Part shown: piece by piece, positions 15,294-21,263 of the stretch
Layout: each line of letters starts with the position of its first letter
Position numbering within the stretch: the stretch's first letter is position 1
IMG/VR virus record: IMGVR_UViG_3300029309_000250
Location: 1 to 28,748 of that record
Strand: one strand, 5' to 3'
Source of the DNA: a virus
Length of the DNA stretch: 28,748 nucleotides
The notes under the pieces: generated by a model
What the model saw: the letters and a program-made list of their open reading frames with translations, nothing else
The model's database searches: none
Told to the model about the DNA's origin: nothing
Program-made: the position numbers and the translations under genes

Positions 15294-15313
15294 TTTTATT
15301 AAATAAAAACATC

Positions 15314-15373
15314 GATTCTCAGGGCCTTCAGCAGCGACAGCCGTGTCTAACTACCTTCAGGTCGCTGAGAATC
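15314..15373. terminator. Imperfect stem-loop between converging modules (possible bidirectional terminator)
   Basis: The 13-base sequence gtcgctgagaatc (15361-15373) is complementary to two separate upstream pieces: gattctc (15314-15320) and agcgac (15333-15338), with a 12-base bulge between them. An alternative 9-bp pairing is gattctcag/ctgagaatc. T-rich tracts lie beyond it on both strands (15389-15404 on +; gatgttttta on -). It is the only spacer between the + and - gene sets. The position suits termination for both, but the stem is interrupted and the T-runs are offset, so this is tentative. Confidence 0.45.
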
Positions 15374-15391
15374 AAGGTTTGTGTGCAGTTT

Positions 15392-15544
15392 TTACTTTTT
15401 TTTAGGTGGTCTTCCGCGTTTTTTCTTTTTAATCGTTGGTTTCTTTACCACAGACGGCTCAGTCTTTGGTTTTGTAAACGGTTCTAACTTTTTAGGCTTG
15501 CTAATTAAGCAGGGAAAGAACACTTTTAAAAATTTAGTCCACAT
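15392..15544 (-). CDS. AT-hook microprotein
   Basis: A 50-aa ORF preceded by a good ribosome-binding site (AGGAAG, five bases before the ATG), in a gap with no other gene on this strand. The N-terminus is aromatic and hydrophobic (MWTKFLKVFFPCLI), the middle is Pro/Lys-rich, and the C-terminus is KKKRGRPPKKK with the core R43-G44-R45-P46. The R-G-R-P core flanked by Lys is the classical AT-hook, which binds the minor groove of AT-rich DNA. It is the last gene of the replication-side module, 19 bases after the 83-aa gene. Possible roles are DNA binding or condensation, or tethering DNA to a membrane through the N-terminal segment. The motif is certain; the role is not. Confidence 0.75.
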   Translation of the reverse strand: MWTKFLKVFFPCLISKPKKLEPFTKPKTEPSVVKKPTIKKKKRGRPPKKK

Positions 15545-15563
15545 TTTTCTTCCTTTTCTTAAG

Positions 15564-15815
15564 TTAATCATTACAAAAAGTCTCCTCTATTTCTTCAAGG
15601 GTATACCTCCATACAAATACGGGGGTTCCTGGACCCATATATGCACCGAGCACGTTGTATTCAAAATACTCAACTGCCTCTGTGTCTGACATGCCTTGTT
15701 GTTTAAGTATTTCTATACATTTGTTTGCATCATAAGCTATCACAGGGTCGCTGCTACTTCTTTCTGCAACTCCTATCACAGCTTTATCATAGCCATCTGC
15801 TTTTAACATTGTCAT
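15564..15815 (-). CDS. Conserved hypothetical phage protein (83 aa)
   Basis: An 83-aa acidic protein with two parts: an N-terminal segment with IAYDANKCIEILKQQGMSDT, followed by EAVEYFEYNVLGAYMGPGTP and VFVWRY. Proteins with the D-x-E-A-x-E-Y-F-E-Y-N-x-x-G-A-Y pattern are common in phages of many hosts and have no known function. The ATG at 15815 is preceded by GGGGAG, which lies in a relic of the polymerase 3' end (15812-15877). An in-frame ATG two codons later is possible but less well placed. It forms an ATGA overlap with the relic's stop, so it was probably once coupled directly to the polymerase gene. Confidence 0.75.
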   Translation of the reverse strand: MTMLKADGYDKAVIGVAERSSSDPVIAYDANKCIEILKQQGMSDTEAVEYFEYNVLGAYMGPGTPVFVWRYTLEEIEETFCND

Positions 15816-15877
15816 TCTACTTCTCCCCAGTTATCTACAATTGTTAAACAACCAGCATTTAGGTTTCTGACACATCT
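15812..15877 (-). pseudogene. Relic copy of the DNA polymerase C-terminus
   Basis: Read on the minus strand, these 22 codons give RCVRNLNAGCLTIVDNWGEV, then E and a TGA. The intact polymerase ends TCVPNLN, PFDVDSAIVNNWGEVE, stop. The two match over CV-x-NLN and over IV-(D/N)-NWGEVE with a 3-codon deletion in between. In the last 24 coding bases 20 are identical, and most differences are synonymous third positions, as expected for true coding homology. The upstream part overlaps the last codons of the 69-aa gene in another frame. The relic has no start of its own; an in-frame TAA lies just upstream. Confidence 0.7.
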
Positions 15878-16068
15878 CTTTTACATTTCCATCCTGTTAC
15901 AACTAATGGTGATTTGTGATCAAGCAACACTTTTATTGTGTTTGCTAACATCTCATCAATGCGTTCTTCGCATTGTTCGACAGTTTTATATGGACCTCTG
16001 TCATCAGTGAACATAAAACAACCTACGTTTGTGTAAGCATGGCAAGCCATTAAAATTGCTGTAAACAT
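15859..16068 (-). CDS. Small cysteine-containing hypothetical protein inserted after polA
   Basis: A 69-aa protein (MFTAILMACHAYTNVGCFMF, then TDDRGPYKTVEQCEERIDEM) with cysteines at 9, 17, 33 and 62. The short hydrophobic N-terminus resembles a minimal export or anchoring signal, and four cysteines would suit a periplasmic disulfide-bonded protein; both points are inference. The ribosome-binding site is the GGGGAGAAGTGGAG that encodes the end of the polymerase; the ATG lies three bases after that stop. The gene stands between the intact polymerase 3' end and a decayed second copy, so it appears to be a later arrival. No known family; I see no nuclease motif. Confidence 0.7.
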   Translation of the reverse strand: MFTAILMACHAYTNVGCFMFTDDRGPYKTVEQCEERIDEMLANTIKVLLDHKSPLVVTGWKCKRDVSET

Positions 16069-16071
16069 TTT

Positions 16072-17946
16072 CTACTCCACTTCTCCCCAGTTGTTTACTA
16101 TTGCTGAATCAACATCAAAGGGTATGTTTAAGTTAGGAACACAAGTTGTCATTATTTCTGTTATTCGTTTTACTTGTTTGTTGTTCTCTATGTTAAAACA
16201 AAGTTCATCATGTACCGTTAGCATGGGAAGCAATCCCTCTGCGTAGCAATCAACCATCGCCTTCTTGGTTTGGTCGGCACTTGATCCTTGAATCAACCTG
16301 TTAAGTGCCTTGTATGTAAAGGCACGTTTAATTGCAGCTTTGCCGCCGTATTCCTTGGCAGCTTCTTCTAACGGCAGTGCCTTATTATAGCCGTATGACT
16401 TGGGTTGCCACATGTTAAATCTACACTTACGACCTAGCCAGGTTCTTATGTGACCATTTGTTTCAGCTTGTTTCATAGCTAAGTCAGCCATTCCTTTTAT
16501 GAATGGAACTCTTAAATGGTAGTCTTTTAAAAGAACCTTTGCTGATTCCTGTGGAATGTCCAGTACTCCTGCAAGTTTTCCTATGCCCATGCCATACATA
16601 ATACCAAGATTAACGGTCTTAGCTTGCTTTCTACTAATGCCGCCCATATCTGCAACCATTTGATGAAAGTCAGCACTACCTTCATGATACATCTTTACGA
16701 CATCATCTATTTGAGGGTGGCGATTTGCACCCTTTAACATAGAGCAGTAATGAGCCAGCCAGCGTGGTTCTTGAGAAGCGTAGTCAAATGAACCCCACTT
16801 GCACTCCTCTTCAGGAACAAACAAACCTCGAATCATTGCTTTAATTTCCGGGTCTCTTGCTGGAATTTGTTGAAGGTTTGGATTGGACGAAGAAAATCGT
16901 CCTGTGACAGTGCCCCCTTCATCTGAACGAAGAGGATTAAAATCACAATGAATACGACCGTTATGTGAATGTTCAAGAATAGTTTCAATAAATGTGGTAT
17001 TAGCCTTGTTAAATTCACGAAGACGAACAATCTTCTGCGCTAACGGGTGCTCATGGTTTGATAAAAACTGTTTTGTAAAAGCAGGTGCGCCTGTCTTTTC
17101 TGTTGTTTCATACTTCAAACCAACAGCATCAAAAGCTCTTGCAACAGAAGAAGCAACCCAAGGCTCGACATAAACCTCAGTCATTTCTTTTATTTCTTTG
17201 CGAAGAACCTCTTCACGTTTTCTTAATTCTTTTTGAACCTGTTCAGTTTTATCAATGTCTACTCTCACACCACGAGTCTTCATGTCCAACAGAACAGGCA
17301 GCAGACTCGACTCTAAATCAAAGATACCTGTGCACTCATCGCTGATAAGATCGGCCCGTAATCTGTCCCACAAACGTAAAGTAACAGACGCATCTTGTTC
17401 TGCATATCTGCCTACAAACGTGGAATCTAACTTCCACATGCCGCTTTTCGGGTCCACGCCATACATATCCGCCGCAGACTTTAACATCTTTTCGTTCTTC
17501 CATTCGCCCAGATATTCACCAGACAAAGAGTTTAGATTGTAGTATCGCCTGTTCTCATTCAAAAGTGGAGCGGCTATCATCGTATCGATAATCTTACCCT
17601 GTACCTCAATACCTGCCCACCGTAGCCAGCCAAGATCGTACATGCAGTTGTGCATAACTTTTTCTATGTGAGGTGTGGCTAATTGTTTCTTCAACCATTT
17701 AACAACAACCTCCTCCGGAAGGTTACCAGACTCATGTCTTACAGGAAAATATCCAACAAAATCTCCAGCAGCAACGGCATATCCTATGACATAACCATCG
17801 TCACGACACCATCCCGGACCCAGTGTAGTCAGGTTTGGGTCTCTTGTTTCTAAGTCTATCGATATTCTGTCGTAAACTGTCAGGTCCGGAAAGCTTGAAG
17901 GCGGTAACCAGCTTTCACTTTCTGGGTCAAATAAATCAACCTTCAT
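16072..17946 (-). CDS. polA: DNA polymerase I, family A, with 3'-5' exonuclease
   Basis: A 624-aa replicative polymerase. The 3'-5' exonuclease domain (~25-200) has Exo I DLE (D31, E33), Exo II HNCMYD (N100, D104) and Exo III YAEQD (Y181, D185), so proofreading looks intact. The polymerase domain has TGRFSSSNPNLQQIP (348-362), motif A DYASQEPRWLA (D388), motif B R439-K443-L447-Y451 in RKQAKTVNLGIMYG, and motif C VHDEL (D580, E581). The position equivalent to E. coli Phe762 is Leu447. No 5'-3' exonuclease domain and no DnaJ-like insertion is present. The start overlaps the DUF6378-like gene by 11 bases. It probably works with the primase, helicase and SSB-like protein encoded just upstream. 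A second, decayed copy of its 3' end lies at 15812-15877. Confidence 0.97.
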   Translation of the reverse strand: MKVDLFDPESESWLPPSSFPDLTVYDRISIDLETRDPNLTTLGPGWCRDDGYVIGYAVAAGDFVGYFPVRHESGNLPEEVVVKWLKKQLATPHIEKVMHNCMYDLGWLRWAGIEVQGKIIDTMIAAPLLNENRRYYNLNSLSGEYLGEWKNEKMLKSAADMYGVDPKSGMWKLDSTFVGRYAEQDASVTLRLWDRLRADLISDECTGIFDLESSLLPVLLDMKTRGVRVDIDKTEQVQKELRKREEVLRKEIKEMTEVYVEPWVASSVARAFDAVGLKYETTEKTGAPAFTKQFLSNHEHPLAQKIVRLREFNKANTTFIETILEHSHNGRIHCDFNPLRSDEGGTVTGRFSSSNPNLQQIPARDPEIKAMIRGLFVPEEECKWGSFDYASQEPRWLAHYCSMLKGANRHPQIDDVVKMYHEGSADFHQMVADMGGISRKQAKTVNLGIMYGMGIGKLAGVLDIPQESAKVLLKDYHLRVPFIKGMADLAMKQAETNGHIRTWLGRKCRFNMWQPKSYGYNKALPLEEAAKEYGGKAAIKRAFTYKALNRLIQGSSADQTKKAMVDCYAEGLLPMLTVHDELCFNIENNKQVKRITEIMTTCVPNLNIPFDVDSAIVNNWGEVE

Positions 17947-18220: not shown

Positions 18221-19731
18221 AGTTGAAACCCATATTGTGAAGTCGATTCAATGATATGCAATGTTTTTTTAGCACGAGTTAGGCCAACATAGAAAGTGCG
18301 AACCTCACTGTCTTGATCTCTGCTTTCAGCGCAAGCCCTTGATGTATCTAGAAGAAGAGCTACGTTGTCTGCCTCCCCACCTTTAGCCTTATGTATTGTT
18401 GACAGCTTAATCCTTGGCTTGTTTGTTAAAATTTTTTCTCCCATCCTGCGCACTGAGCTTATATATATTCTTTCTTTTTCTGCTATTTTTAAGACCTCAT
18501 GCCAAGGCTTGTCCTCTATGTTGTCTATAGAAAAGTTTTCTTTGATGTCGTGTAAAGTATGAGGCATTTCCGCATCTAGGCTTGATAGTCTTTTTCTTGC
18601 TGACCTTTTTAAAAAGTCTGATTTTAACAGGTTAGATAAAGTTTTTATCTCTTCCGCTGCAACACTAAGACCCTTGCACAGTTTAAGCCATACCTCTATT
18701 CCAGTCAGTACATTGGGTGAGATAGACCAACCGGAGCCTTCGCGCCAGAACAAATAGCCCTGATCTTTAAGGTCTGTTGCAATCTGATTAGCAATATAAT
18801 TTGTTCGACTGAGGATCAACCACTCGCCTTCCATCAGATTAAGGTCCGATATGTTGTAATGCCAAACAACTTGACCAGCCTCATTTACAGGCGACCATAC
18901 TTTTGATTGTCTCATAACTACCCTGTTTATCAGAGAGTTTGCAATTTCATATATGTTTTTAGGTAATCGATATGACTTATCCAATACCATCTTATTTTCT
19001 GATGCGTTTAGAAAATCACGAACATCTACACCCATCCAAGAGTAAATGCACTGGTCATCATCTCCTGCAAAATAGATACGCTTTGCCCGTGGCTTGAGCA
19101 CATCGTGAACCATGCGCCATTGTAACGGGGCCAAATCTTGTGCTTCATCAACTATCAGGACCTCTAACCTTGGACCTTCGCCCTGTGCTATAAAACTTTC
19201 AATCATATCCACAAAATCAATTTTACCTGTGTCGTGTTTGTAATCCTGCAACACTTCGTTAACTAATTTTAATTGTTGATAGAATGAATGTCTGTTGTTG
19301 GTGTCACTAAACTGTTGCTCAAGACTGACTCCACGCACCCTAGCTAACTGAATCATAGACAGATAGGAATCTCCTCCCTTGCCCGGTGAGAAGAGTTGCC
19401 CATCTGCCATGTTTAAAGATGAGTTAGAAGAAAACTCTACACCCAGTATATTACCAAGTTGCGTGAAGTCAGACCCCTTCAATACCCGTTGACTACTAAG
19501 CCCTAGATATTGAAAAGCCATCGAGTGTAATGTTCGGAACCAAACCATTTGATTAGGATCTATGTTCAGTGCAGCGGAAGCACGAGTCCGAGCTTCGTCT
19601 GCCGCCTTACGGCTGAAGGACACGAACGCTATATCCTCTGGCCTTGTACCATCTTCAAGTTCCTGCTTGACGATAGATATAAGCTTGGTTGTTTTGCCTG
19701 TGCCTGGTGGCCCAAAGATTGTGGTCTGCAT
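18217..19731 (-). CDS. UvrD/Rep-type superfamily 1 DNA helicase
   Basis: A 504-aa ATP-dependent 3'-5' type helicase. Visible SF1 motifs: Walker A GPPGTGKT (7-14), motif Ia FVSFSRKAADEAR (37-49), motif II VDEAQD (194-199), motif III AGDDDQCIYSW (222-232), motif IV KSYRLP (252-257), motif V STIHKAKGGEADNV (444-457) and motif VI YVGLTRAKK (481-489). The length is shorter than cellular UvrD (720 aa), with compact insert domains, as in phage versions. It lies directly after the primase gene (one-base overlap) and before the polymerase. No DnaB-type helicase is seen nearby, so this may be the fork helicase; it could also serve in recombination. Confidence 0.93.
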   Translation of the reverse strand: MQTTIFGPPGTGKTTKLISIVKQELEDGTRPEDIAFVSFSRKAADEARTRASAALNIDPNQMVWFRTLHSMAFQYLGLSSQRVLKGSDFTQLGNILGVEFSSNSSLNMADGQLFSPGKGGDSYLSMIQLARVRGVSLEQQFSDTNNRHSFYQQLKLVNEVLQDYKHDTGKIDFVDMIESFIAQGEGPRLEVLIVDEAQDLAPLQWRMVHDVLKPRAKRIYFAGDDDQCIYSWMGVDVRDFLNASENKMVLDKSYRLPKNIYEIANSLINRVVMRQSKVWSPVNEAGQVVWHYNISDLNLMEGEWLILSRTNYIANQIATDLKDQGYLFWREGSGWSISPNVLTGIEVWLKLCKGLSVAAEEIKTLSNLLKSDFLKRSARKRLSSLDAEMPHTLHDIKENFSIDNIEDKPWHEVLKIAEKERIYISSVRRMGEKILTNKPRIKLSTIHKAKGGEADNVALLLDTSRACAESRDQDSEVRTFYVGLTRAKKTLHIIESTSQYGFQL

Positions 19732-21263
19732 TAGAACGGCACCTCACTTTCAAGTTCGATACTTGGAACTTGGACCTCGGCATTGAATGCTGGAACCCAC
19801 CACACCCGAAGTGGTTTGGTATCACCCTTAGTAGTGTTAAATCTTTTCTGTCCATTTGCTGTGCCGTTGTCGTTTAGTTCCTTTAACCGCTCCTGAATCT
19901 GACCACGGCTATAACTGTCGAACTTCTGATTGCGCAGGTATTTAAGCAGTGCTTCTAGCTTGAAGTATGTGAGGCCCTCTTCATCGTCCGTGAAGGGCTT
20001 GCCAAGTGCAATCTCTTCAGCAGACTGGGCTTGTACCCGACCGTCACAGAACGCCTCTAGCAGGTCCATGAACTGACCTTTATAGGTAAGTTCTTCTGGC
20101 ACATCTATTTCGCTCATGCCGTCCATCAACATGGACACAATTACCTGCCAGTCTGCCATCTTCATCATCGGTGGCATGACATGTATCTGTTCCATACATG
20201 CTTTCTGAAAACGCTGCGGTGTTTGCAGGTCATCAGTTGTTAGTTCGACACGCCGACCACCCACGTCACAGAACCACACAGGTGGTTCAGACTTGACCAC
20301 ACATAGGCCAGTAATTTCTACATGTTGAACGTGGCTACCTATTCCACACGCTTTTGTTTTGCAGAGCGTTTTGTTGCAGAAAGACTTGAGGGGTTCTTGT
20401 TCACAGGGGAAACCATATTCCTTCTTATCGTGTTGAGACTGAATAGTGACGACTTCAGAAGCTGGTAAAGGGGGCGTACAGTATTTGACATTAATTTCTT
20501 CAAGACGTTCTCTCCATTTCTCAGGCTGTTCTTTTTTGGCACCAACAGCGGCAGCAAACATAACTGTGTTGCGCGTACCTTCTGGTATGCCCTGACTAAA
20601 CATATGCGACAGACATGGTGCCCACTGGTCAAACTCATCGACAGCTTTTCCAAGCTGTAAGTTTTGAAAATCTTTTGGGTCAATGCAGCGCAGCTTAACT
20701 AGCTTTAGAAACTCCGAAAGACTAGCTTCTTTTCCGTTTTCTTTTACCGCATATCTAAGTGTTTGCTTTGAGTCGAAATACGGTAGGTTAATAAAGTTTC
20801 CAATGTCCCCTCGTTCAACAAGAATCTCTTCTTGTTTTGGAAAAACTTCGCAACCTCCGTACCCAAAGTAAGCTGCAATCTCTGTTGCTTTATCTCTAAA
20901 AACACCTGCGTTTAAAAATTTTGTAAAGAAAAAGAATATATGTGCGCCACCCGATTTAGAACGACAGACAACACAAGGTATGTTGCTGTCTCTTAGCTTT
21001 TTATCAAGTGCAACTAAGTCTAAAGGGTATTGATCTATGTCCAGCGCACCAAATTTGCACTGACTATTTTCATTAATCGGTATGGAACCTACCCCCATTT
21101 TACCTTCAAGATGGGAAGTTACTAGCTCTATAGTTAATGGTGCTCTGATTATACGAGACTCTGCCTTTTGTTTTCCAGCGCGTCTCTCATCAGATATTTT
21201 TGTCTGTCCATGTGCGGTGCTAAAACCTTCAAACGCCGCCATGAACCGTTCGGCTTGGTTCAT
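19731..21263 (-). CDS. AEP-superfamily primase (PrimPol-like)
   Basis: A 510-aa protein with the archaeo-eukaryotic primase motifs: motif I GALDIDQY (metal-binding D75, D77), motif II SKSGGAHIFFF (S104, H108) and motif III GNFINLPYF (155-163). Next comes APCLSHMFSQGIPEGTRN (216-231), then a cysteine cluster C287, C296, C301, C306 in CEQEPLKSFCNKTLCKTKAC, the PriCT-like or Fe-S/Zn type region seen in TOTE-type and phage primases. The C-terminal third is probably a helical binding domain. It would make primers on ssDNA, perhaps with polymerase activity. The extreme C-terminus ELESEVPF looks like the acidic tip of SSB proteins. One-base overlap with the SF1 helicase; a strong hairpin (21288-21316) precedes the gene. 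Confidence 0.88.
   Translation of the reverse strand: MNQAERFMAAFEGFSTAHGQTKISDERRAGKQKAESRIIRAPLTIELVTSHLEGKMGVGSIPINENSQCKFGALDIDQYPLDLVALDKKLRDSNIPCVVCRSKSGGAHIFFFFTKFLNAGVFRDKATEIAAYFGYGGCEVFPKQEEILVERGDIGNFINLPYFDSKQTLRYAVKENGKEASLSEFLKLVKLRCIDPKDFQNLQLGKAVDEFDQWAPCLSHMFSQGIPEGTRNTVMFAAAVGAKKEQPEKWRERLEEINVKYCTPPLPASEVVTIQSQHDKKEYGFPCEQEPLKSFCNKTLCKTKACGIGSHVQHVEITGLCVVKSEPPVWFCDVGGRRVELTTDDLQTPQRFQKACMEQIHVMPPMMKMADWQVIVSMLMDGMSEIDVPEELTYKGQFMDLLEAFCDGRVQAQSAEEIALGKPFTDDEEGLTYFKLEALLKYLRNQKFDSYSRGQIQERLKELNDNGTANGQKRFNTTKGDTKPLRVWWVPAFNAEVQVPSIELESEVPF

Follow-up and report, generated by a model that had tools for sequence, protein, structure and literature searches.

Introduction

Recombination at boundary sequences and illegitimate recombination are the standard explanations for phage mosaicism (PMC3029335), and one-sided double-strand break repair with illegitimate junctions at microhomology has been documented for phage T4 (PMC2988022). 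The seg and mob genes of T4 are free-standing homing endonucleases that lie beside essential phage genes (PMC2988022). In ICP1-like phages, HNH-AP2 genes are near the DNA polymerase gene in 29% of neighborhoods (PMC10448857). Mobile ORFs that provide a foreign C-terminus are known from fungal mitochondria, in atp6 of Allomyces and in atp6, atp9, cox2, and nad3 of Glomus (PMC3630166).

Here, we analyze the 3′ end of polA in a marine phage. The window, by which we mean the whole stretch of DNA analyzed, is a virus record from IMG/VR, 28,748 bases long. It carries a gene for a 69-residue protein directly after polA and, beyond this gene, a second copy of the polA end. We consider it very probable that this locus is a recombination scar, formed when a recipient resembling the relative L001 recombined with a sister phage having the gene order polA-69aa-60aa.

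Results

A second copy of the polA end

All genes of the locus are on the minus strand (Table 1). The polA protein has the C-terminus NWGEVE, and the gene ends in NIPFDVDSAIVNNWGEVE followed by TAG. The second copy, here called the relic, is 33 nt long, corresponding to about ten codons plus a stop, and has the polA end CAATTGTAGATAAC. It ends in TGA and, as the initial annotation had pointed out, overlaps the start of the 83-aa gene as ATGA.

Table 1. Features at the polA 3′ end of the window
Feature	Coordinates	Strand	Description	Basis
polA	16072–17946	−	Family A DNA polymerase with 3′-5′ exonuclease domain, intact	Pfam DNA_pol_A (2.5e-59) and DNA_pol_A_exo1; ORF
Last 106 nt of polA	16072–16177	−	Recombined tract	15 of 80 substitutions relative to L001
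69-aa gene	15859–16068	−	Cysteine-containing small protein	Usual polA neighbor in sister phages
Truncated start (~30 nt) of the 60-aa zinc-ribbon gene from the donor	15846–15875	−	Overlaps the 3′ end of the 69-aa gene	Alignment; 27/30 to L106
polA-end relic, ACAATTGTAGATAACTGGGGAGAAGTAGAATGA	15812–15844	−	Contains GGGGAG, which resembles a Shine-Dalgarno sequence, and the ATGA overlap with the 83-aa start	
83-aa gene	15564–15815	−	Directly adjoins polA in L001 and L002	phrog_13182 (2.3e-25)
59-aa gene	15392–15571	−	Basic protein; follows the 83-aa gene	Present in L001 and L002 too

When start codons are aligned, the relic and the L001 polA end agree at 25 of 29 positions, and the other 972 of the 973 ATG sites in the window score 13/29 at best; thus, the match goes far beyond ribosome-binding-site similarity, which upholds what had been proposed from the window alone. 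Over its full length, the relic matches L001 at 29 of 33 positions (differing at 4) and the window's own polA end at 25 of 33, consistent with the earlier view that the old polymerase end was left behind as a scar. The segment GTAGAATGACAATG of the relic is the same as in L001 without a mismatch, running on into the 83-aa gene. Among the other polA loci tested, only L003 has such a duplication.

The relic is shorter than it had been taken to be. The initial annotation was right that a polymerase end is duplicated and wrong about its extent, which is 33 nt and not ~75, or ~10 codons and not ~25. A longer relic was rejected: the stretch RCVRNLN-AG, read as its upstream half, is coding sequence of other genes and lies where the 69-aa gene, at its 3′ end, and the 60-aa zinc-ribbon gene, in its first ~30 nt, overlap. 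The DNA just upstream of the relic (AGAGATGTATCAGAAACCTAAGTGCTGG...) is also found in sister phages that lack the duplication, where it again forms the end of the 69-aa gene and the start of the 60-aa gene (MYQKPKCWSCG...). In the window, this truncated start reads MCQKPKCWLF, compared to MYQKPKCWSC, and the sequence then switches to the polA end. An assembly chimera was also rejected, since the same junction is present in an independent contig, L003, with many substitutions in the flanks (81 in 5034 bp between the window and L003).

Other features of the window are recorded here in their own right. Between the lysozyme gene (plus strand) and the minus-strand genes, an inverted repeat, GATTCTCAG...CTGAGAATC (15294–15385; folding energy, −26.6 kcal/mol; z, −3.1), is probably a terminator between convergent genes. 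Tandem repeats of 60 nt at 2468–2866 encode a 20-residue VDANFTQTT-type motif within a 238-aa protein; three successive ORFs of 123 to 132 aa at 69–1224 are alike in layout and all have a GDLA end; and a primase at 19731–21263 is related to the archaeo-eukaryotic primase family of TOTE systems (PF22548, 8e-16).

Both parental gene orders occur in relatives

A search for polA in relatives gave 80 loci, and later gene counts were made over 127 non-redundant loci. Three arrangements bear on the window. In arrangement A (L001 and L002), polA runs straight into the 83-aa gene through ATGA; these loci lack the 69-aa gene and are otherwise close to the window, with polA 98.0% identical over the gene and flanks 98 to 99% identical. 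Arrangement B (the window and L003) has the order polA, 69-aa gene, 30 nt of the 60-aa gene, 33 nt of polA end, 83-aa gene. In arrangement C (L004 to L015 and L106 to L120), polA is followed by the 69-aa gene and an intact gene of the 60-aa type.

Arrangement B is a join of C on its left side and A on its right. Up to and including the 30 nt of the 60-aa gene, the window is of the donor type (L005 and L106), and from the relic onward it is like L001. Homology to the C type continues through the 69-aa gene and 30 nt into the 60-aa gene and then stops, and the right breakpoint is located within a few nucleotides. Both orders are thus found unjoined in relatives, and the joined form with the same junction is found in two contigs. 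The insert also brought along a truncated part of the gene that comes next in the donor, as would be expected of a join made by recombination. That the order before the exchange was polA followed by the 83-aa gene, as suggested initially, is supported by L001 and L002. Among the relatives, we saw no locus without the 69-aa gene that carried both copies of the polA end, nor did the relic turn out to match unrelated sequence. A homologue of the 83-aa gene is also the direct neighbor of polA in L144 and L145.

In nucleotide sequence, the window's 69-aa gene is 85 to 90% identical to the closest C copies, and the body of polA is 79 to 81% identical; the 69-aa gene is identical in the window and L003. 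These two share a 598-bp stretch with one mismatch that spans the insert, compared to ~2% difference elsewhere (longest such stretch, p about 0.03), which hints at a recent spread of the B form.

The end of the window's polA, GTGGAGTAGAAAATGTTTACAGC, is that of donor-type phages L005 and L108 and not that of L001. Its last codons, GTGGAGTAG, are donor-like, yet positions −60 to −29 are identical to L001. The accumulation of substitutions in the last 106 nt of the gene (Table 1; 5875 nt compared) has a binomial p of 1.5e-11; positions −106 to −61, which the polA-end repeat does not cover, hold 10 substitutions. The tract is patchy, and at −106 to −61 it is L001, not the window, that comes closer to some of the donor-type phages (L015, 96%); for this reason a polarity of exchange based on the tract was rejected. 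Taken with the four positions at which the relic differs from L001, this points to a history with more than one exchange. At the right junction, there is no clear long microhomology; a GTTG match is a candidate only.

The small genes behind polA vary in other ways. A distant locus, L084, has the order polA-69aa-83aa without a relic. A gene of the 69-aa family and a zinc-ribbon gene (WGGDHD) occur in both orders, with the zinc-ribbon gene ahead in L017 and L019 to L029 and the 69-aa gene ahead in L004 to L015, implying that these genes have been reshuffled.

The 69-aa gene

Homologues of the 69-aa gene directly follow polA in 34 of the 127 non-redundant loci, window included, and just two of the 34, the window and L003, have the polA-end duplication. 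The protein had no match in Pfam or the PHROGs and no nuclease or recombinase signature there. The family has four invariant cysteines, and the structural model is a confident beta-beta-alpha-beta fold (pLDDT, 91.9) without a significant match in the PDB, all E values being above 1. A role as a nuclease was rejected in the absence of a family match; I-TevI, at rank 30 in the structural comparison, is noise. The 69-aa gene looks like an ordinary accessory gene.

Nuclease genes at the polA stop of relatives

At the polA stop of relatives, genes of the HNH_3 family are found in 10 of the 127 loci, PDDEXK_14 genes in 4, and phrog_18407 genes in 2. Pelagibacter phage HTVC023P has a LAGLIDADG gene (gp08) in this position, overlapping polA by 11 bp. 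The HNH, PDDEXK, and LAGLIDADG genes encode a nuclease domain, lie beside a conserved polA, and are polymorphic between close relatives: L026 (HNH) and L030 (PDDEXK) differ in the nuclease, with polA 99.6% identical, as do L126 (HNH) and L139 (PDDEXK), with polA 98.5% identical. These unrelated nuclease genes, and the copies of the polA end found with some of them, mark the polA stop as a docking site in repeated use and do not point to a new mobile element. The theme of targeting a 3′ end, raised in the initial annotation, is present at this stop codon, carried by the nuclease genes of relatives and not by the 69-aa gene.

Copies of the polA end, 14 to 15 nt long, are found with two kinds of cassette. 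The HNH protein of L026 and L125 has the C-terminus GYISRNGEVE, and GGAGAAGTAGAATGA in its gene is the same as at the end of polA. In L212 and L283, the PDDEXK gene terminates in GGAGAAGTAGGATGA, which matches the polA end at 14/15. When 8,939 ATG sites in the loci tested were compared with their own polA end, only L026, L125, and L212 reached at least 10/11, each at the right end of the nuclease cassette. That all nuclease insertions carry such a copy was rejected; most do not (L030, L033, L040, L048, and L080).

A general hotspot of gene conversion at the polA 3′ end was likewise rejected, as 2,002 locus pairs gave no general excess there, and L080 and L037, with and without an insert, showed no conversion tract at the polA end. 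The polA gene of L126 is a mosaic with respect to L034, L037, and L080: the 5′ part differs by 20 to 30%, and the last ~1.2 kb by a few percent. This last ~1.2 kb is clearly a recombination block that reaches the polA 3′ end and that L126 has in common with L037.

Discussion

One can envision an ancestor like L001, with polA followed by the 83-aa gene, exchanging DNA with a sister phage of the polA-69aa-60aa order. The left exchange would have fallen within homologous polA sequence, so that the polymerase end was replaced and yet stayed intact. The right exchange would have been one-sided and largely illegitimate, with the donor strand exiting ~30 nt into the 60-aa gene and rejoining the recipient ten codons ahead of the recipient's polA stop; this rejoining would explain why the old polA end now separates the new gene from the 83-aa gene. 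Without an insert, the terminal polA codons would provide the gene that follows with both a Shine-Dalgarno region and a start overlap, and recombinants with the old polA end before the resident gene would keep its translation start. It is probable that the remnant was retained, or that no other recombinants survived, since the end of polA also supplies the next gene with its ribosome-binding site and ATGA overlap; the relic probably preserves these signals for the 83-aa gene. The exchange may have been set off by a nuclease cutting close to the end of polA, given that nuclease genes occupy this slot in relatives. Inference enters this sequence of events at four points: the lineage of the donor, the precise position of the left breakpoint, the route of repair, and selection on the start signal. 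Counting against a recombination scar are the absence of the exact donor among the collected relatives, the differences between the relic and L001, the closeness of L001 to some donor-type phages at −106 to −61, the lack of a clear long microhomology at the right junction, and the adjacency of the 69-aa and 83-aa genes in another lineage, L084.

Could the two polA ends share nothing but a ribosome-binding site or promoter motif? The core GGGGAGAAG is certainly Shine-Dalgarno-like, but this reading can hardly be right. The 20-nt core is found only twice in the window (16079–16098 and 15819–15838), with no third match at up to 3 mismatches and 0.02 expected by chance; the score of the relic stands well above that of the next best ATG site, the relic is syntenic with the polA-83aa junction of L001, and the other polA loci tested, except L003, lack it. 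No similar 33-nt leader was seen before genes never adjacent to polA. A regulatory motif or phage promoter was rejected on the same count of two copies in the window, with no general occurrence in relatives. It is also quite improbable that the window order is ancestral and that a deletion between the polA-end copies removed the 69-aa gene from L001 and L002. These copies form a 42-nt direct repeat (76% identity) that could mediate such a loss, and the order in L084 would fit; however, the substitutions at −106 to −61 lie beyond the repeat and are not accounted for by a simple deletion, and the truncated 60-aa start marks the window junction as derived. The original proposal that the 69-aa gene is itself mobile, targets polA 3′ ends, and brings a replacement C-terminus did draw on an insert, new polA end, and old end arranged just as such an element would leave them. 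We now regard it as highly improbable. The protein has neither a nuclease or recombinase signature in Pfam or the PHROGs nor a significant fold match in the PDB, its gene is an ordinary neighbor of polA in 33 other non-redundant loci with the duplication in L003 alone, and the insert includes a fragment of the gene that follows in the donor.

A role for nucleases is a different matter, in that it would refine, and not exclude, a recombination scar. Endonucleases encoded at the polA stop would cut nuclease-free alleles, repair would import a new polA end plus cargo, and the old end would be left as the start signal of the resident gene; the 69-aa gene would have ridden along. We see this as possible but doubtful. 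It is favored by the presence of HNH_3, PDDEXK_14, phrog_18407, and LAGLIDADG genes at the same position, by the polA-end copies in both HNH and PDDEXK cassettes and their rarity among the ATG sites compared, and by the near-identical window/L003 stretch across the insert. Yet neither the insert nor ten other window proteins scanned include a nuclease, most nuclease insertions at polA lack a copy of the polA end, the locus pairs gave no general excess of conversion at the polA 3′ end, and L080 versus L037 gave no conversion tract there. One step further, this group of marine phages would have a dedicated cassette slot at the polA stop, in which the conserved codons AAC TGG GGA GAA GTA GAA TGA combine polymerase end, Shine-Dalgarno sequence, and start overlap, unrelated nucleases cut there, and successful insertions regenerate a 15- to 33-nt unit on both sides. 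We think this unlikely; if true, cargo like the 69-aa gene could be stacked behind polA with expression retained.

With both parents represented by close relatives, the locus cleanly illustrates the addition of a gene behind an essential phage gene and the resulting scar. Unrelated nuclease genes at the same stop codon make it a testable case of polA ends acting as a coding and translation-start unit that can be copied at docking. It also calls for caution, as a small gene of unknown nature next to such a scar is not necessarily a mobile element.

How does the locus compare with the systems described? As with the fungal mobile ORFs, the native C-terminus is left downstream of the insert, here as the relic, and the insert may have provided a new 3′ end for the host gene. 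The fungal ORFs encode an endonuclease held responsible for their movement, whereas the insert in the window consists of a small non-nuclease gene and a gene fragment, both attributed to a sister phage; since no recognizable endonuclease is encoded, this is not a mobile ORF of the fungal type. The free-standing homing endonucleases have their counterpart in the HNH, PDDEXK, and LAGLIDADG genes exactly at the polA stop of the window's relatives, but the insert in the window is without a nuclease. The available portions of the two accounts of such endonucleases (PMC2988022 and PMC10448857) do not describe polA-end copies at the right border, and a literature search for phage nucleases accompanied by a duplicated end of the host gene gave no relevant report. 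Mosaic, homeologous recombination between phages, as described in PMC2327257, has in common with the window the exchange of a block of genes between related phages, a join located at the boundary of a gene, and, in our case, a polA end common to both parents. The window differs in that it keeps a copy of the last ten codons of the target gene, apparently as the leader of the next gene.
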